This document shows positions 2,635-21,607 of a stretch of DNA of 64,000 nt, one piece after another. A model generated the notes under the pieces. The model saw nothing but the letters and a program-made list of their open reading frames with translations. It made no database searches and was not told where the DNA came from. The translations under genes were made by a program, and so were the position numbers. This stretch comes from Streptomyces mirabilis (GTDB lineage Bacteria > Actinomycetota > Actinomycetes > Streptomycetales > Streptomycetaceae). Positions within the stretch are counted from its first letter, which is position 1, and each line of letters starts with the position of its first letter. The stretch covers positions 6,262,001 through 6,326,000 of the forward strand of contig NZ_JBCJKP010000001.1 of NCBI RefSeq assembly GCF_039503195.1, given 5' to 3'.

Positions 2635-3873
2635 TCAGCCTGCCTCCGGAACCAGCCGCTCCGGCCCGCTGACCGTCTCCCCCTTGAGCTTGGCGCGCAG
2701 GGCAAGCTCCTCCGCGGACAGCGGTCCGGGTGCGACCCGGGGCGGCACCCCGTACACCGTGGCGCCGGGCGCCAGCGGCGGCTCGTAGTGGTCCGGGGCC
2801 GTACGGAGCGTCAGTGTGGTGGCGCCGATGAGGACGACCGTGAAAGCGATGGCGGCGCGGGTCCAGTGCCGGGCGCGCTGCTCTCCGCCCCAGCGGACCG
2901 TGGTGGGCTTCGCGGCGCGCAGCCGCTCGGCGGAGGCGACCTCGGCGAGTCGCCGGTGCAACTCCTTCGGCTCCGCCAGCTCCGGCAGCCGCGTGACCAC
3001 GGCCTCGCGCGCGTGCAGCAGCCGGTTGGCCGCCGCGGGCGTGCTCGCCTCCGTCTCGGCCGCGGTCTCCGGCAGATCGAGCCCGACCCCGTCGTAGAGC
3101 AGCAGGGTCCGCCGGTACACGGGCGGCAGCTGCAGGAGTACGTCGAGCAGCGCGCGGTCCGCGGGGGCGGCGGGCGGCGGCTCCGGGTTGCGGTGCCGGG
3201 GGCGCAGCCTGTGCCAGGGCGAGAGCGCGAACTCGTGCGCCGTCGCCCGCACCCACCCCGCCGGATCGCGGTCCATGGCCACCTCGGGCCAGCGGTGCCA
3301 GGCCAGCTGGAAGGCGCGCTCCACCGACTCGCGCGCCAGTTCGCGCCGCCCGGTGAGCAGGTAGGTCTGCCGTACGAGGGCGGGGGCGCAGAACGCGTAG
3401 AGGGCGTCGAAGGCCTGATCGGGCGTCAGGGAGGGCGAAAGGGGTTCGGCTTCGGGGCTGAGCCCGGAGCCGAGCTCGGGTTCGGGGCCGCGTGCGGGAT
3501 CAGGGTCGAGTTCGGGAGCGGGTCTGGGGGCGAGTTCGGAGGCGGATGAGGTTTCGGAGGGCGGCTCGGGGGCGGGTTCGGCACGGTCGGGGGACGCCTG
3601 TACGGGGCCGGTGGCGGCGCCGACCAGGGCGGGAGCCGGGTTCTCCTGATGGGGGGTCACCTCCTCGGCGCCCGTCAGCAGTCGTGCGTACGCATCCCGT
3701 TTGGTGCCGCGTGGCGTCGTACGGCCTTTCTCCCACGAGCGCACCGTCGCACGAGTGACGCCCAACGCGGCCGCGACGTCGGCCTGGCTCAGCGACTGGG
3801 CCTCGCGCAGGCGGCGGCACTCCTTGGGGGAGGGCAGCGGGGTCTCAGGGGTGCGTGTCATGGCGGACCCCAT
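2635..3873 (-). CDS. XRE-type HTH / sigma70-like / membrane-anchored regulator
   Basis: A 412-residue protein of unusual make-up. Residues about 19-70 form a Cro/CI-type helix-turn-helix (LREAQSLSQADVAAALGV, then VRSWEKGR). A Pro/Glu-rich linker follows. Residues about 148-210 (FDALYAFCAPALVRQTYLLTG ... AFQLAWHRWPEV) resemble ECF sigma region 2, and about 239-300 (LLDVLLQLPPVYRRTLLL ... AAANRLLHAREAV) resemble region 4. A single membrane helix lies near 336-358, then a short outside tail. I chose the ATG at 3873 because aaggggc stands 6 bases upstream; an ATG four codons later is possible. The -10-binding aromatic residues of real sigma factors are not obvious, so it may be a sigma-derived regulator rather than an active sigma factor. 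Function unknown. Confidence 0.8.
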   Translation of the reverse strand: MGSAMTRTPETPLPSPKECRRLREAQSLSQADVAAALGVTRATVRSWEKGRTTPRGTKRDAYARLLTGAEEVTPHQENPAPALVGAATGPVQASPDRAEPAPEPPSETSSASELAPRPAPELDPDPARGPEPELGSGLSPEAEPLSPSLTPDQAFDALYAFCAPALVRQTYLLTGRRELARESVERAFQLAWHRWPEVAMDRDPAGWVRATAHEFALSPWHRLRPRHRNPEPPPAAPADRALLDVLLQLPPVYRRTLLLYDGVGLDLPETAAETEASTPAAANRLLHAREAVVTRLPELAEPKELHRRLAEVASAERLRAAKPTTVRWGGEQRARHWTRAAIAFTVVLIGATTLTLRTAPDHYEPPLAPGATVYGVPPRVAPGPLSAEELALRAKLKGETVSGPERLVPEAG

Positions 3874-3969
3874 AGGGTGCCCCTTAGTACGAAAAAGTAC
3901 ATAGCTGCATATTGAGCGACACATCCAAGGTTCGCCTGTTACGACGAGAAAGCGCGTGTCGTTGGGAAC
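3874..3969. promoter_or_regulatory. Divergent promoter region
   Basis: The 96 bases between two divergent genes are AT-richer than their neighbours (around 3885-3915), as expected for promoters. They contain GTAC-N6-GTAC (3887-3900). No hexamer pair is convincing enough to assign to either gene. Confidence 0.4.
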
Positions 3970-5514
3970 ATGGCGGGCGTGACCCAAATGACCGACCGCA
4001 GGCTGTCGTTGCCGCCCCTGCTCACCCGGATGCGCCACCGTTCGTCCGGACTGGGCGCCAGCCTCCTGGGTGGCGCCCTGGCGGCGGGGCTCGGACTCGG
4101 CTCGTTCGCCGTCCTCGTCATGATGCTGTGGATCAGCTCGCCCTATCCGGACAGCGGGCCGAGCGGATCGCTGCACGTGGCCGCCGCGTTGTGGCTGCTC
4201 GCGCACGGCGTGGAGCTGGTCCGCACCGAGACCCTGTCGGGCCTGCCCATGCCGGTGGGTGTGACACCGCTGCTGCTGGTCGTCCTGCCCGTGTGGCTGC
4301 TGTACCGGGCGGTGCGTGGCGTGGCGGACGCCGGGGCCGAGGCGGAGCCGGGCACGGTGTGGACGGGGGTCGTCGGGGGCTATCTGACGGTCGGACTGGC
4401 GGCGGCGCTGTACTGCTCGGGCGGGGAGTTGCGGCCGTCGTGGCTGTGGACCGCCGGATGCCTGCCGTTGCTCGCCGGGAGTGCGGCGGGGGTGGGTGTG
4501 TGGGCGGCGTACGGACGCGCCGGCTTCCCCGAGCTCGCGCGGGTCCGGCGGTTGCTCGCCGGCGTACGCCGTTGCCCGCCCGAATTCCTCGGGGCCTCCG
4601 CGCGGGCGGCCGGGGCCGGGGCGGCGGTGCTCGTCGGGGGTGGCTCGCTGTTGGTGGCGGCGTCGCTGGTGTGGCACGGCGATGCTGTCCGGGACTCGTT
4701 CCCGCAGCTCACCGAGGTGTGGTCGGGGCGGTTCGCGGTACTTCTGCTCTGTCTGGCGCTGGTGCCGAACGCGGCGGTGTGGGGGGCCGCGTACGGGCTC
4801 GGGCCCGGGGTCGTGCTGGGGGCCGGGCATGTCGCGGGTCCGTTGTCCGCGGCGGGGCCGGGGCCGTTGCTGCCGGCGTTTCCGCTGCTGGCGGCGGTGC
4901 CGGTGCCCGGGGCGGTGTGGAATGAGGTGGGGATGGGGGTGCCGGTGGTGGCGGGGGTGACGGTGGCGTGGTTCCTGGTGACCGCGGGGGCGCCGGGGGA
5001 GGGGCGGGAGGCCTGGTCGGGGGGGCGGGTCGTGCTGGGGGTGGGGGTCGCGGCCGTGGGGTGCGGGCTGGTGATGGCGGTGCTGGCCGGGGTGGCGGGT
5101 GGGCCCTTGGGGGTGGCGGCGTTGGCTCACTTCGGGCCGGTGTGGTGGCAGGTGGGGGGAGCGGCGGTGGTTTGGACGGTGGGGGTGGGGCTTCCTGTGG
5201 GGGTGGGGTTGTGGGCGTGGGGGCTTTGGCGGAGACGGGGGGTGTCTTGGCCTACGTGGCGTTCTCGAACCTCGTGGCGCTCTCGGCTCTCGTGGCCCTC
5301 GTGGGGGGCGTGGCGGTCGTGGTTCTCGTGGAGGGTCTGGGCGGGGCGGTCGCGTGGTGAGGGGGGTCCGGTGGAGCCGGTGCCGAAGGGGGAGCCGACT
5401 CCTGCGGTGGGGGTGGGTTCGACGGTGGGGGCGGGTCCGGCTTCGGGGTCGGTCCCGGCGCGGGATCCGAGCCTGGAGCCGTACGACCTCTTGCCCTCCG
5501 ATGACATGGGGTGA
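3970..5514 (+). CDS. DUF6350 / 'cell division protein PerM' family membrane protein
   Basis: A 514-residue polytopic membrane protein. Helices begin with [27 protein letters not shown] (about residues 29-57) and continue every 30-40 residues to about 420, with [20 protein letters not shown] a recognisable conserved block. The C-terminal 90 residues are Trp/Arg- and then Pro/Gly-rich and probably cytoplasmic. This family sits next to purN in many streptomycetes and is annotated as a DUF6350 or PerM-like protein; its activity is unknown. Start choice is uncertain: the ATG at 3970 has only a close gggaa, and a GTG at 3979 or ATG at 3988 is possible. The 3' third (from about 4900) is extremely G-rich on this strand. 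Confidence 0.75.
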
Positions 5515-14827: not shown

Positions 14828-15223
14828 GCTGAGCGTTCTCGTGACGGGTGAGGTCGCACCTGTGTTCCCGTTGTGTCGATGTCTTGACAAGTTCAAGGAT
14901 TTACCCTGATCCATCCCAACAACCCGGATAGCGTGGCCAATCGGGACGGTATCGGACGTCCTGTTGCGGAGGACGAGGGTCCGATTGGCGGGCATGACGT
15001 CGATGGGACAATGGGCCGCAGCCCGTGGGGCGTGCAACGGTGCATGCCCGGGCCCGAATGCTCCCGTGCGCCCCCATCCCGGGAACTGAGATCCTGACCG
15101 ATCGCATCCCTGTGGGTAGCCAGAACGGGGACCGGCGGGGCCGGGGGACTCGGCGGACGGGTGCCGAAACACGCGGGGGAACAGTCAGGCACGTACGGGG
15201 GGAAAGAAGCAGGGGGAGCAGTA
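14828..15223. other. 396-base gap between two HTH-TM genes
   Basis: No gene is visible. A perfect -35 TTGACA stands at 14884-14889, but no good -10 follows at 17-18 bp. A long interrupted inverted repeat, gccaatcgg(g)ac at 14936-14947 with gtccgattggc at 14979-14989 and a smaller inner stem, would fold as an extended hairpin in the leader. The remaining 230 bases are unassigned. Confidence 0.45.
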
Positions 15224-16543
15224 ATGCCTCGTTGGAGGGACTTGCCGGATGAACTCGATCCGCAGGTCAGGGAGTTCGCCAGCCAGTTGCGCCGACTGGT
15301 CGACCGGAGCGGGCTGGGCATCGCCGCGGTGGCCGACCGTACGGGCTACAGCAAGACGTCCTGGGAGCGGTACCTCAACGGTCGGCTCCTCGCGCCCAAG
15401 GGCGCGATCGTCGCCCTGGCCGAGGTGACCGGGACCAATCCCATCCATCTGACGACCATGTGGGAGCTGGCCGAGCGTGCGTGGAGCCGCTCGGAGATGC
15501 GCCACGACATGACCATGGAAGCGATCCGGATCTCCCAGGCGCGCGCCGCGCTAGGGGAGTTCGGGGCGCCCCCGGCGAAGGGGAGCAACGGCAAGCAGGC
15601 CCGCAAGGGGGGCAGCGCGACCGCGACGCCCGGCATCACGCCGGGGATCGCCGGGCCCGCGGGGGTGTCGCCGACGGTGCCGCCGCAGCCGTCCGCCACG
15701 GAGGTGGAGGACTCGTCGTTCGGCTCTTCGTCGTCGCTCGGGGGCGGGGCGCGTGGGGGTGCCGGGTACGGCGGGTCCTCTTCGGGCGGGTCTTCGGGAG
15801 GGCCTTCGTCCGGTGGGGGCTCGCGTGGCGGGGGCTGGGGGGTCGTCGCCACGCCGTCCGATGACGGGGGGCGGTTCGGTCCGTCGACTCCGGCGACGGG
15901 GGCCGTGGGGCCGGGGGGTTCCGCGGGTTCTGTGGGTTCCGCGGGTTCTGGGGGTTCGTCGGGGCCGGGCGGTTCCGTGGGTGCGGCCGGGTCTGTCGGT
16001 GCCGGTGGGCCGGGTGCGCCCGTGGGGGGATCCGGCCCGGACGTGGCGGCGCGGCGTAAGCGGCGGCTGACGATGTTCCTCGCGGGGGTTGTGGGTGCGC
16101 TCGTGGTGATAGCCGCGGCCGTGTACTTCACCGGGGGCGGCGACGGCAAGAAGGCGGCGAGCGCGCCGAAGACGCCCTCGACGTCCGCCGCGGTCAATCC
16201 CGATCTGCCGGCCGGGGTGAAGTGCAGTGGCGCCGACTGCACGGGCAAGGACCCGGAGAACATGGGGTGCGGTGGGCAGCTGGCGACGACCAGCACCAGC
16301 ATCACCGTGGGGACCACTCTCGTCGAGGTGCGCTACAGCAAGACCTGCGCCGCGGCCTGGGCCCGGATCACCCAGGCCGTGATCGGTGACTCGGTGCAGG
16401 TGACGGCCGGTACCGCTGCCAAGCAGACCGGGACCGTCGACAACGCCACCGATGCGTACACCCCGATGATCGCCGTGAAGGATGCCGCCGAGGCGAAGGC
16501 GTGCGTCACGTTGAAATCGGGCCAGAAGGGCTGCACGAAGTGA
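15224..16543 (+). CDS. XRE-type HTH, membrane-anchored DUF2690 protein
   Basis: 439 residues. Cytoplasmic HTH about 1-80 (LPDELDPQVREFASQLRRLV, GYSKTSWERYLNGR). A long Gly/Ser-rich linker runs about 120-285, then one membrane helix (MFLAGVVGALVVIAAAVYF). The extracellular DUF2690 domain starts CSGADCTGKDPENMGCGG with paired cysteines, continues VEVRYSKTCAAAWARI, and ends CVTLKSGQKGC. Single-pass HTH-DUF2690 proteins are common in Streptomyces and of unknown function. The ATG at 15224 follows agggggag; an in-frame GTG or ATG further upstream lacks this site. Confidence 0.8.
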   Translation: MPRWRDLPDELDPQVREFASQLRRLVDRSGLGIAAVADRTGYSKTSWERYLNGRLLAPKGAIVALAEVTGTNPIHLTTMWELAERAWSRSEMRHDMTMEAIRISQARAALGEFGAPPAKGSNGKQARKGGSATATPGITPGIAGPAGVSPTVPPQPSATEVEDSSFGSSSSLGGGARGGAGYGGSSSGGSSGGPSSGGGSRGGGWGVVATPSDDGGRFGPSTPATGAVGPGGSAGSVGSAGSGGSSGPGGSVGAAGSVGAGGPGAPVGGSGPDVAARRKRRLTMFLAGVVGALVVIAAAVYFTGGGDGKKAASAPKTPSTSAAVNPDLPAGVKCSGADCTGKDPENMGCGGQLATTSTSITVGTTLVEVRYSKTCAAAWARITQAVIGDSVQVTAGTAAKQTGTVDNATDAYTPMIAVKDAAEAKACVTLKSGQKGCTK

Positions 16544-18574: not shown

Positions 18575-20278
18575 GTGACGGAATCGGAGAGACGGTACGC
18601 ACACAGCGAGGCGACACGGCTGTTGTGTGCCGGAGTACATCTGGACACCGTGTTCCGGGCACGGGTCATCGACGAACTCATAGGGCACGAGGAGCGGCCC
18701 GCGGCACCGTCCCTCGGTGTCGACGTCGTCGCCGTGCTCGCGCACGCGCTGCGCGCGCGCCGCAGGGAGGCGCTGACCGGGCTCGGGCTGCTGGCCATCT
18801 GGGTCGTGTTCTTCCTGGTGGAGATGGTCCGGGCGGCCACCGGCGTCGCAGACGCGGGACCCCAGGGTTTCGCGGAGGCGTTCGGCGCCCTCGCGGTCTT
18901 CTTCTACGCCGCCGTCTGCTTTCTGCTGTGGTCCGCGCGGGTCGCGTCCGGGTGGGGCATGAGCATGTACGCCGCGAGCCGGGACGAGTCCGCCCGGCTG
19001 CGGCTGCCGCGCAGGGCGACCGCCTGGGGGCTCACCTTCATGGCGCGGGCCGCGGAGCTCGCCTACTGGGTGTACGCGTTCACCCAGTTGCTCCACGACC
19101 CCTTTCTGGTGATCTTCCCGCTCCTGCTCACCTTCGTGATCGGTGCCCACCGCTCCCAGGTGGCCGCGGTCATGAGCGTCGAACTGTCCCGGGACGCCTT
19201 CGCCCGTACGACCGTGGCGCTGCCCATGGGCAGCGAGCGTCAGCTCCGGGTCGCGCGGGCCGTCACCTGGGAGCAGCACGCGTCCGTGGCGCTCTACGAC
19301 GCCCACCGGCCGTTCGTCGGCGCGGGAAAGCCGTACGAGCCCTGGTCGTTCGCGATGGAGATCACCCCCGCCAAGAAGCCGTTCGACGGCCTGAACGGCA
19401 AGCTGCCCGAGCAGACCGGCGACGGTTCGGCGAACGGACGCCGCCCGCCGGTGCAGTTGACCAACCGGCAGATCCTCGACCTGGTCGTACCGAAGCTGGA
19501 GGCGCTGCGGGAGTCCGCCGCGCGCACCAGCCGGGACCGGCTCAAGGACCTGGAGGTCGAGGAGTTCGTCTACCTGCCGTACGGCGTGGGCCGCAATCAG
19601 GGTGTGTACGAGCCGTCGTCGGCCCGGCTGCACCTGGACGGGGCGGTGGACGAGGGCGGCGAGGCGCGCCGTCACTTCCTGCGGGTCAGGGTCGGCGCCT
19701 GGGACGAGCAGGTGGTGGTCTCGGTGCTGGTCCGCGTCCACACGCAGGGCGGGATGCTGGTCCTGGAAGTCGTGCCGCACGTGCTGGGGCCGATCTTCGA
19801 GGAGTACCGGCGCGTCGACTTCATCGCGGCCTCCGGGGAGGGCGCGACGGGGCGTGAGGTGTTGCGGACGGTGCTGTCCGCCCCGGCGACGGGCGTGGTG
19901 GCCGGGTTCTCCATGCTGCGCACCCTCGTCCAGTGCCTGCGCACCTGGCTGGCCCGGCCCGAACAGGCCCCGCCGGACGCCCCGTTGGTGTCCGTGCGGG
20001 AGATGGGCAGCACCGACCGGCTGTCGCTGTTCCAGGAGATGGACGTCAGCCGTTACATCAAGACCGTCGAGGACCGGATCGCGAGCGGCGTGCGCGAGGC
20101 GCTGCGGCGCAGCGGCTGTGAGACGGGCAGCTTCGAGCAGAACATCTTCAACGTGGCCGCGGGCGGCCAGTTCATCGGGCAGATGAGCGGCGGCACCGCG
20201 GTGGGCCGGATCAGCAAGAGCGCCGTCTCCATGGGCAGTGGGGGCGCGTCGTACAACGAGGGGAACAGGGATGACTGA
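18575..20278 (+). CDS. Uncharacterised polytopic membrane protein with motif-bearing C-terminal tail
   Basis: 567 residues; no family recognised. Residues 1-60 are cytoplasmic (SEATRLLCAGVHLDTVFRARVIDELIG). Helices lie at about 68-88 (GLGLLAIWVVFFLVEMV), 105-126, and 152-192 (FMARAAELAYWVYAFTQL, FLVIFPLLLTFVIGA). A large soluble region of about 350 residues follows (EEFVYLPYGVGRNQGVYEPS, HFLRVRVGAWDEQVVVSVLV). The last 25 residues form a Gly/Ser-rich tail, R545-E562 RISKSAVSMGSGGASYNE, that is repeated in the N-terminus of the next protein. The GTG at 18575 is my choice (ggggg 8 bases upstream); a GTG at 18566 is possible. It overlaps the next gene by 8 bases. Confidence 0.7.
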   Translation: MTESERRYAHSEATRLLCAGVHLDTVFRARVIDELIGHEERPAAPSLGVDVVAVLAHALRARRREALTGLGLLAIWVVFFLVEMVRAATGVADAGPQGFAEAFGALAVFFYAAVCFLLWSARVASGWGMSMYAASRDESARLRLPRRATAWGLTFMARAAELAYWVYAFTQLLHDPFLVIFPLLLTFVIGAHRSQVAAVMSVELSRDAFARTTVALPMGSERQLRVARAVTWEQHASVALYDAHRPFVGAGKPYEPWSFAMEITPAKKPFDGLNGKLPEQTGDGSANGRRPPVQLTNRQILDLVVPKLEALRESAARTSRDRLKDLEVEEFVYLPYGVGRNQGVYEPSSARLHLDGAVDEGGEARRHFLRVRVGAWDEQVVVSVLVRVHTQGGMLVLEVVPHVLGPIFEEYRRVDFIAASGEGATGREVLRTVLSAPATGVVAGFSMLRTLVQCLRTWLARPEQAPPDAPLVSVREMGSTDRLSLFQEMDVSRYIKTVEDRIASGVREALRRSGCETGSFEQNIFNVAAGGQFIGQMSGGTAVGRISKSAVSMGSGGASYNEGNRDD

Positions 20279-20633
20279 GGGCTCGGGCGGGCGGGTCGAC
20301 CGGATCACGCGCAGTGCGGTGAACTTCGGCGACCACGGCACCGCGAACTATCACGAGGCGCCGCCCGCGGCCGGCGCCGACGAGACGACCGTGGCGCTCC
20401 TGGAGGCCGTCCGCACGTTGCGCGATCATCTGCGGCTGCTCACGGAGACCGACGACACGACCGGCCTCGACGGCGAACTGGCCGTGGTGCAGGGAGAGAT
20501 CGAGAGAACGGGCCAGGCGGACCCGGCGCGGCTCGGCCGGCTGCGGATGCGCCTGGAGACCGCCGCCGCGGCCGTGGCGGGGCTGGCGTCGACGGCGGCC
20601 GTGGTGCAGGTGATCGCGCAGCTGGCTGGATAG
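20271..20633 (+). CDS. Small protein sharing a motif with the upstream membrane protein
   Basis: 120 residues, unrecognised. Residues 11-29, RITRSAVNFGDHGTANYHE, align with the tail of the upstream protein (R-I-S/T-K/R-S-A-V-x-x-G-x-x-G ... Y-x-E). The rest is predicted helical: ALLEAVRTLRDHLRLLTE, GELAVVQGEIERTGQAD and a hydrophobic end AAAVAGLASTAAVVQVIAQLA. The ATG at 20271 lies inside the previous gene's 3' end after gagggga, so the two are coupled. It may be an adaptor that associates with the membrane protein through the shared motif; this is inference. Confidence 0.7.
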   Translation: MTEGSGGRVDRITRSAVNFGDHGTANYHEAPPAAGADETTVALLEAVRTLRDHLRLLTETDDTTGLDGELAVVQGEIERTGQADPARLGRLRMRLETAAAAVAGLASTAAVVQVIAQLAG

Positions 20634-20674: not shown

Positions 20675-21607
20675 GTGGCGCAACGGTGGGACGAGGACCG
20701 CCAGCGGTGGGTCGACGACGACGGCGCGGGCGGGCAGGGCAGGGGCGGGGCCGGTGGTGGCGGGGTGCCGCCGGACGCGGAGCAGCAGTGGTGGGCGTCG
20801 GCGACGACCCAGGCGGGGCCACCGCGCCCGCCCGAGACGCCCCTGCCACCACCGTCGTGGTCCGGGCCCGGCGGGAGTTCCGGCGGCGGCCGGGGTCCGG
20901 CCCCCACGGACTCGCGCCGGCTGCTGGTGGTGATCGTGGCCGTCGCCGTCCTCGCGGGCGGTGTCGGAGGTGCGGTGTGGGCGCTGACCAGGGGCGACTC
21001 GTCCGGGCACACCGGCGCCGACCCGTCGCGCCCGGCGGTGACCGTCACCGCGACCCAGAGCGTTCCTTCCCCGGACACCGGGTACACCTCCGGGAGTCCG
21101 GACATCTACGCCGGTTCGGGCGGGTCCAGCGACCCGGCGACGCAGCCCACGACCCCGGAGCCGTTGCCCGGCTACAGCAGGTCGGTGGATTCGGTGGGCT
21201 ACACGGTGGACGTGCCCGACGGCTGGGTACGCGAGGAGGTCCAGGGCAAGCTGGCGCCGGTCGTCACCTACACGGCCCCCGGCGGCAGCAGCAGGCTCAT
21301 GCTGTTCGAGGTCAAGGAGAGCTCCCTGGCGGAGTCGTCGTCCCAGGCCGAGGCGATCTCGCAGAAGCTCCCGGGGTACCGGCTCATCGAGCGGCAGAAC
21401 GGCACCGACTGGACGGAGGTCACCTACCGCTACGACAGCCCGCAGAAGGGCGCCACGCACGTGGTCGACCACCGCTTCCGGGCCGCCGACGGCACGCTCT
21501 ACGCGATCAACGCGAGCGGCCCCGAGGGCGTGGACATGACGGGCCCACTCACCACGGCCCTGAACTCCTTCTGCCCCGCCGACACGAACTGCGCGAGCAG
21601 TACCTAG
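20675..21607 (+). CDS. Single-pass membrane protein with extracellular domain, unknown function
   Basis: 310 residues. A cytoplasmic Gly/Pro/Trp-rich segment (about 1-80, starting VAQRWDEDRQRWVDD) is followed by one membrane helix (LLVVIVAVAVLAGGVGGAVWAL, about 83-104). A Thr/Ser/Pro linker leads to a globular domain from about 170 (YSRSVDSVGYTVDVPDGWVR ... SRLMLFEVKES ... VDHRFRAADGTLYAINA) with two cysteines near the end (FCPADTNCASS). The Gly-Trp pattern resembles serine/threonine-kinase-linked or lipoprotein-like sensor domains, but I cannot name a family. Start GTG 20675 follows acggggtg. It is 41 bases after the small motif gene, probably in the same operon, and nearly touches the convergent next gene. 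Confidence 0.7.
   Translation: MAQRWDEDRQRWVDDDGAGGQGRGGAGGGGVPPDAEQQWWASATTQAGPPRPPETPLPPPSWSGPGGSSGGGRGPAPTDSRRLLVVIVAVAVLAGGVGGAVWALTRGDSSGHTGADPSRPAVTVTATQSVPSPDTGYTSGSPDIYAGSGGSSDPATQPTTPEPLPGYSRSVDSVGYTVDVPDGWVREEVQGKLAPVVTYTAPGGSSRLMLFEVKESSLAESSSQAEAISQKLPGYRLIERQNGTDWTEVTYRYDSPQKGATHVVDHRFRAADGTLYAINASGPEGVDMTGPLTTALNSFCPADTNCASST

Follow-up and report, generated by a model that had tools for sequence, protein, structure and literature searches.

Results

A membrane protein and its small neighbour carry the same terminal motif

We analysed a 64,000-nucleotide (nt) stretch of the Streptomyces mirabilis genome (NCBI RefSeq assembly GCF_039503195.1, contig NZ_JBCJKP010000001.1, positions 6,262,001 to 6,326,000 of the forward strand; hereafter, the window), centring on two overlapping genes, A and B, and on gene C, which follows them. 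A encodes a membrane protein whose C-terminal tail resembles the N-terminal head of the small protein encoded by B. This likeness, together with a gene overlap of 8 bases, had been picked out in a sequence-only reading of the window, which took the motifs for homotypic assembly elements of a possible signalling or defence module with gene C as its sensor. Both motifs lie where that reading had placed them, at A residues 545-562 (RISKSAVSMGSGGASYNE, nt 20207-20260) and B residues 11-29 (RITRSAVNFGDHGTANYHE, nt 20301-20357), and the overlap spans nt 20271-20278. The locus comprises the following features, numbered from the first letter of the window and called as open reading frames (ORFs) or predicted with confidence given as the predicted local distance difference test (pLDDT):

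18575..20278, + strand: gene A, 567-amino-acid (aa) membrane protein, proposed sensor or transducer (ORF call, GTG start, stop codon 20276-20278)
18725..19180, + strand: A residues 51-202, four long hydrophobic helices, the predicted membrane part (AlphaFold2 and hydropathy)
19307..20122, + strand: A residues 245-516, predicted cytosolic alpha/beta domain in a possibly helix-grip/KA1-like arrangement
20162..20260, + strand: A residues 530-562, extended C-terminal paired motif, with the core as first noted at 20207-20260 (pLDDT <50 for residues 523-567)
20271..20278, + strand: A/B overlap, 8 nt (ORF coordinates)
20271..20633, + strand: gene B, 120-aa partner (ORF call)
20301..20357, + strand: B residues 11-29, N-terminal paired motif (profile match and alignment; pLDDT about 40)
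20382..20627, + strand: B residues 38-119, predicted helical bundle with a hydrophobic last helix, remotely DUF5955-like (pLDDT 81-90)
20675..21607, + strand: gene C, 310 aa, with an N-terminal WDEDRQRW motif, one predicted transmembrane (TM) segment and an exported domain

Local alignment of the A tail with the B head gave a score of 49 over 26 columns, beginning slightly before the previously noted start, at SGG. Shuffled A tails scored 22.5 on average (standard deviation 4.1, highest 50), and 1 of 20,000 reached 49; other 60-residue windows of A, taken at every fifth position, scored at most 29 against the B N-terminus. Among 23 adjacent same-strand gene pairs in the window, based on gene calls from a simple script, A/B scored highest, followed at 45 by a pair with sequence rich in Pro, Glu, Gly and Ser. 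From A bodies to A tails, Leu falls from 11.1 to 0.9%, while Gly, Asn and Ser rise, and A residues 523-567 and the B motif are of low confidence (disordered) in both monomer models.

Searched against the 11.1-Mb genome of origin, a profile made from 36 copies of the motif found the A and B places at 2.4e-8 and 3.1e-4 and the next place only at 0.26. With two convincing places only, we rejected the idea that the motif is a widespread module of this genome. Across 61 genomes of the genus (G000 included), the motif matches listed fall in A or B with two exceptions: G021 has a clear match in another membrane protein, and G043 a short one (E 0.0018). The G021 protein (L192, G021:C6:356500-365500, positions 3836-4873) ends in this type of motif, PGVHINRVDSSALSIGDHGSATHH; its genome has no A match at E<=1e-20, and a 527-aa gene about 300 bp downstream has a C-terminus resembling, by eye, an Mrr-type nuclease.

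Motif pairs are conserved in Streptomyces and matched within loci

A was present in 68 of 150 same-genus genomes sampled (E<=1e-20), as 78 match rows corresponding to 71 loci; 69 were analysed, with a remnant in G040 and the G052 locus left out. The A tail usually carries the motif G-[VI]-x-[IV]-G-x-x-x-[GNS]-[GSA]-[AF]-x-x-G-x-[HN]-x-x-[AV], which also opens the protein of the following gene, as in L025 (A 'GAVHIGRADNSSFAFGDHARAET', B 'PNVSIGRADNSAFAFGANARAET') and L028 (A 'GGVFIQSVNSSAFSVGGSNNTNT', B 'PSVRIGDVTGSAFSIGGSNNTNS'). Co-occurrence at operon-paired termini was the support that the sequence-only reading had asked for. A profile made solely from 65 A tails, excluding the window A tail, which has an insertion, reached >=8 bits in at least one following ORF at 62 of the 69 loci, the best of several ORFs being taken per locus. 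Among 7320 shuffled ORFs, one reached 12.8 bits and the other 7319 stayed at <=4.5. Partner gene starts in relatives were set heuristically. By eye, B of L007, L008, L009, L010, L012, L013, L015 and L117-L120 contains two motif copies with a linker between them.

We then compared motifs within and between loci, using 59 of the 69. No clear B motif was available in L014, L016, L060, L069, L074, L078 and L080; L007, whose B has two motif copies, was ambiguous, and L006 (the window) and L011 were set aside for an insertion. Motif identity averaged 0.54 for own A-B pairs and 0.33 for crossed A_i-B_j pairs, with a maximum of 0.395 in 20,000 permuted pairings. Where A bodies were <50% identical (528 locus pairs), the A motif was nearer its own B motif than the other A motif in 97.7% of comparisons, a share that dropped to 84, 83, 46 and 10% with rising A-body likeness. 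A and B motif distances co-varied after removal of A-body distance (partial Mantel r 0.51, p 0.0002; 59 loci). At shared residues in 49 loci, the same codon was used in 397/586 cases in own pairs (0.677) and in 11,834/17,446 in crossed pairs (0.678). As codons are equally alike in own and crossed pairs, the matching reflects selection on protein, and gene conversion was rejected as its cause.

Distant relatives rewrite the motif and keep the match

Searches with the A alignment reached other genera and families, with matches in 35 of 296 genomes of the class and 58 of 121 of the family. A further search of the class matched 68 of 394 genomes, many through a paralogue judged motif-less from the match range and a sample of 11, and a search of the phylum matched 10 of 198, eight of these being same-genus. 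The motif varies between these distant lineages, yet A tails and the heads of the proteins that follow them remain matched, as in 'ITGGTFNGPVAAGTGAHATQ' with 'ITGGTFNGPMAAGAGAHAVQ', 'GDNNNNSGTGNTMNTRTGGNRTSGANSPI' with 'GDDNNNSGSGNTMNTRTGGNRTSGANSPI' and 'TYNISGDITGPANIGNNGQI' with 'TYNFHGDISGPSNFGDHGKI'. The loci studied were chosen from match lists and do not represent every row; they include second copies from genomes of the same genus.

In two sets of 39 and 40 distant loci, the tail scored above all shuffles against the best following ORF in 67 of 79, including 35 of 39 in the first set (200 shuffles; L128, L136, L143 and L148 fail). Choosing the best-scoring ORF and shuffling only that one biases these tests towards a match; in the motif-less paralogue, the same method gave 1 of 11 above shuffles, with no motif seen in any, and the bias is therefore small. 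In 38 distant loci, where two A bodies have a median identity of 24%, the mean score was 78 for own pairs and 35 for permuted pairs (maximum 45.7 of 10,000), and the own partner was the unique best in 27. These 38 came from 40 loci after L134 and L136 were taken out, L134 re-entering the second set as L201. The shuffles and the motif-less paralogues led us to reject a chance or low-complexity origin of the A/B match, and conservation of the pairing in relatives makes a chance origin untenable.

The motif-less A paralogue (L195, G000:C1:2335431-2336822, and L243-L252) is common in same-genus genomes and has no matched partner. It is possibly an ancestral, non-signalling form.

Some distant partners carry enzyme domains of effector type

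We scanned with Pfam 34 partners chosen from the 79 distant loci, long ones first. PNP_UDP_1 (PF01048) was found in 11 (L124, L126, L129, L131, L135, L137, L139, L196, L199, L201, L204), the Cap12/Pycsar-type TIR domain CAP12-PCTIR_TIR (PF10137) in seven (L156, L157, L159, L160, L161, L231, L232), EAD1 (PF19955) in four (L130, L138, L206, L210) and DUF5955 above its cut-off in four (L123, L144, L146, L147); the remaining eight had none of these above cut-off. Among the EAD1 partners, the motif match of L206 did not beat its shuffles. EWE and GRD, which we take to be TIR patterns, were kept in 5/5 TIR partners checked, and RGISD and DME, presumably PNP patterns, in 7/7 and 5/7 PNP partners. In six of seven further named Streptomyces loci (L236-L241), a TIR-like pattern stood behind a matched motif; L242, a 24% relative, did not show this combination. 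One additional locus, L235 of Actinacidiphila yanglinensis, is the same contig stretch as L161.

Two TIR and two PNP partners were scanned with PADLOC, and all matched models for candidate effectors of defence: PDC-S35 for the TIR partners, and PDC-M60C and 'Effector PN-superfamily' for the PNP partners. Two papers cite PNP_UDP as a bacterial immune ATP nucleosidase (PMC10197012; PMC12881547). On a tree of 49 A bodies, which came with a warning of long branches, partner types need six changes and PNP appears in two separate places. Pfam found neither an NB-ARC nor a NACHT ATPase in the three window proteins (A, B and C), the six distant A proteins scanned or the 34 distant partners; the small partner L145 gave a sub-threshold match to a NACHT N-terminal helical domain (E 0.06).

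Predicted structures, gene C and the chromosomal setting

At least 1157 relatives of A were retrieved at E<=1e-3 (7993 candidates scored). In the AlphaFold2 monomer model, A has helices at residues 51-90, 96-124, 144-170 and 177-202, and its hydropathy peaks start at 67, about 100 and 172. The Pfam scan of A gave no family above its cut-off, and a search of PDB sequences with the A profile returned nothing. From residue 41 onward, the B monomer model has a pLDDT of 81-90 per block of ten. DUF5955 (PF19380) scored 14.7 bits on the window B, below the curated cut-off of 27.1, and Foldseek and VIA-align with the B model found generic helical bundles only. DUF5955 in the same genome is a separate locus, where no motif was seen. 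PADLOC-DB v2 models had no match to the window A or B at E<=0.01; gene C had a single short match, PD-T4-6, at 6.7e-5. Gene C also matched TIGR03931 weakly (3.3e-7, below cut-off), and its comparison with PDB sequences gave nothing useful.

Gene C, recognised by a strict N-terminal pattern, was found in 48 of 65 same-genus loci, an undercount, as gene C of the window itself escapes the pattern. At TIR and PNP loci, it is no regular neighbour, judged by eye from the heads of the next three called genes, and is therefore accessory at best. A better sensor candidate is A, a membrane protein with a domain that may bind a ligand. Near L123, L128 and L140, we noted by eye genes with a zinc-ribbon-like N-terminal segment, a Pro-rich linker and a TM segment, on the opposite strand in L123 and L128; these are perhaps a counterpart of gene C. 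In the window itself, positions 15161-16543 hold a 460-aa ORF in which, by eye, a helix-turn-helix-like N-terminus is followed by a long linker rich in Gly, Ser and Pro, then by a TM-like segment and a C-terminal part.

The mdh gene lies directly upstream in 20 of the first 30 same-genus loci, and in 28 of 66 loci searched, where flanks were sometimes short. With this recurrent neighbour, the locus looks like a stable chromosomal site and not a mobile island.

Discussion

Here, we find a motif pair at the C-terminus of a membrane protein and the N-terminus of its partners, some of them effector-type enzymes, and the pair is under protein-level selection for matching. Matching of the motifs within pairs almost certainly reflects a pairing function. 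In this, the sequence-only proposal of a homotypic motif holds up well: the motif is conserved, co-varies within pairs, is not explained by gene conversion and is of low confidence in both monomer models. Distant partners with PNP_UDP, Cap12-type TIR or EAD1 behind a matched motif make the accompanying proposal, a module for signalling or defence, a likely one. What found no support is the third gene (20675-21607) as the sensor: it occurs in 48 of 65 same-genus loci, yet is no regular neighbour of the TIR and PNP versions.

Signalling from receptor to effector by the A/partner pair is quite probable, with A sensing and the partner acting. We favour, as a fairly likely mechanism, a four-TM membrane transducer whose signal reaches an exchangeable cytosolic effector through homotypic templating, probably of the amyloid type. 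The cytosolic domain of A may be a StARkin/KA1-like helix-grip fold, and its predicted last helix runs directly into the disordered Gly/Asn/Ser-rich motif. The partner would be cytosolic, with the matching motif first and an effector or adaptor domain last: a predicted helical bundle in the window, and PNP_UDP, Cap12-type TIR or EAD1 elsewhere. A membrane, ligand or phage-related cue could be sensed by A, and clustered A tails might then fold as a beta-arch or amyloid-like template. Partner N-termini would be templated like to like and in register, a step whose specificity is recorded in the evolution of the pairs and whose physical form we can only suppose. Effector domains concentrated in this way would switch on and, judging from their families, might cause depletion of NAD+ or nucleotides or damage to the membrane. 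Matching of the motifs would mean co-assembly, and the outcome may be cell death or dormancy in defence. By analogy with BASS (bacterial amyloid signalling sequence), HET-s and RHIM-like motifs, assembly of the beta-arch or amyloid kind is, on balance, likely. A role in immunity seems somewhat probable.

Several observations weigh against this reading. The window B is the weakest of the 62 accepted matches, its 8.5 bits lying under the best shuffle at 12.8, and it is without a recognised effector domain in Pfam. Partners lacking the motif, which the sequence-only reading had regarded as refuting, occur as exceptions: in 7 of 69 same-genus A loci no following ORF carries the motif (L016, among these, lies at a contig end), and in L014, L060, L069 and L074 the motif stands on A with no motif-bearing B adjoining. 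In G040 (L194), B and C are kept and A is cut to 148 aa, and B alone is therefore tolerated. Among A bodies >80% identical, the own B was nearer in only 10% of comparisons, as relatedness predicts. In the second distant set, 32 of 40 loci scored above all 100 shuffles and 8 of 40 failed (L195, the motif-less paralogue; L198; L206; L212, at a contig end; L218; L219; L222; L233), and in 11 of the 38 distant loci compared by permutation another locus's partner scored as high as the own one or higher. Fold matches of A are of middling strength. No defence genes flanking the window locus were recognised by eye, with no search aimed at them, and the mdh site agrees with stable vertical inheritance and would be natural for a housekeeping function too. 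At the G040 remnant (G040:C1:6477000-6484500, positions 2180-2623), the A N-terminus joins directly to its last residues, the middle being lost.

Other explanations account for part of these data. The motifs could be homotypic docking strands of a stable non-amyloid complex, such as a two-protein beta-solenoid cap or beta-zipper, acting as a permanent tether with neither polymerisation nor templating. Any matched beta-beta interface would co-vary likewise, the gene overlap fits 1:1 complexes, and mdh beside 20 of 30 loci fits a constitutive role; against this, hetero-docking elements generally turn complementary and not near-identical, whereas near-identity here persists through many motif flavours, both motif regions are of low confidence in the monomer models, and two motif copies in one B, as seen by eye, suit repeated stacking. 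We consider such docking unlikely. That both termini are alike through binding one and the same third partner, whether the gene C product or some other protein, is highly improbable: gene C does follow in at least 48 of 65 same-genus loci, but the motif flavours differ so radically between loci that the third binder would need changing each time, and the next three gene heads at TIR and PNP loci reveal, by eye, no recurring third gene. The proximity of the window copies, within about 100 bp of each other, would suit functionless duplication relics or motifs kept alike by local gene conversion. This is scarcely credible, given that codons are no more alike within than between loci and that the match is kept in pairs whose PNP, TIR and EAD1 partners differ in origin.

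A further alternative retains pairing and signalling and assigns the module to membrane or osmotic stress or to development instead of immunity. It draws on the conserved mdh-side site, on betaine-aldehyde- and choline-dehydrogenase-like genes seen by eye downstream in the window, and on the possibly helix-grip-like domain, which could bind a lipid or metabolite. The partner enzymes of the sister systems belong to immune-effector families, however, and PADLOC models match the scanned TIR and PNP partners named above; we regard this alternative as a real but minor possibility. The wider picture would be a large actinobacterial family of NLR (NOD-like receptor)-independent signalling amyloids, each combining a membrane receptor, a fast-diversifying prion-like C-terminal address and its own swappable effector (TIR, PNP_UDP, EAD1 or a helical executioner), with an address-partner code rewritten many times into many insulated self-matching pairs. 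We put this picture at slightly better than even.

A review poses the question of whether NLR-independent signalling amyloids exist in bacteria. The A/partner family, found in 68 of 150 same-genus genomes, offers a direct and testable candidate with a membrane protein as the receptor, and its many diverged matched motif pairs are natural experiments on templating specificity. If the proposal is true, it places a receptor upstream of TIR and PNP effectors in these operons. In the literature searched, where most subscription papers were out of reach, no paper among those listed was recognisable from its title or the start of its abstract as dealing with the A family or with NLR-free membrane-protein/effector pairs, and none was found on 'DUF5955'. 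Homotypic amyloid-type receptor/effector motif pairs are a known kind for NLRs, and we did not recognise the membrane-protein version in that literature.

Bacterial NLR/Bell signalosomes use motifs BASS1-10 (Dyrka et al. 2020, as presented in PMC7889193, PMC8086366, PMC9815663 and PMC12261475), and BASS motifs are reported with bacterial TIR domains too. BASS, HET-s and RHIM-like motifs are short and terminal, lie in adjacent genes, show great sequence diversity and, for HET-s, are natively unfolded in the monomer (PMC7889193, PMC7885112, PMC9815663). The A/B system resembles NLR/Bell in having a motif of 20-40 residues common to the termini of two proteins, in its adjacent or overlapping genes, in its sequence-diverse families and in its occurrence in filamentous actinobacteria. 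It differs in that a membrane protein takes the receptor-like place and the proteins scanned gave no NLR domain, in that the partners are PNP_UDP, Cap12-TIR, EAD1 and DUF5955-like, and in the arrangement of the motif, which stands at the receptor C-terminus and effector N-terminus here, whereas NLR (N-terminal) and Bell (C-terminal) show the reverse.

Fungal PUASM/PNP_UDP signalling (PMC9815663) likewise has a PNP_UDP (PF01048) effector with a terminal motif common to its receptor, although the receptor there is an NLR and the effector motif C-terminal, compared with a bacterial membrane protein and an N-terminal motif here. EAD-coupling (effector-associated domain) and EACC1 conflict systems (PMC7159879) also couple separate genes homotypically and combine a membrane component with a variable effector, and EAD1 occurs on four partners here; they use folded EADs on both sides, unlike the short disordered motif of A and B. 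No EAD was found by Pfam on the window A or B or on six distant A proteins, a scan that did not include A of the four EAD1-partner loci. The TIR domain of seven distant partners is that of CBASS (cyclic-oligonucleotide-based antiphage signalling system)/Pycsar Cap12-type effectors (PF10137), whose activation by cyclic nucleotide would be replaced here by motif templating; among gene heads beside the distant loci, no cyclase was recognised by eye, with no search aimed at cyclases. Taken as a whole, the proposed module would work like the NLR/Bell and NLR/HET-S amyloid signalosomes, with a membrane receptor and swapped termini.

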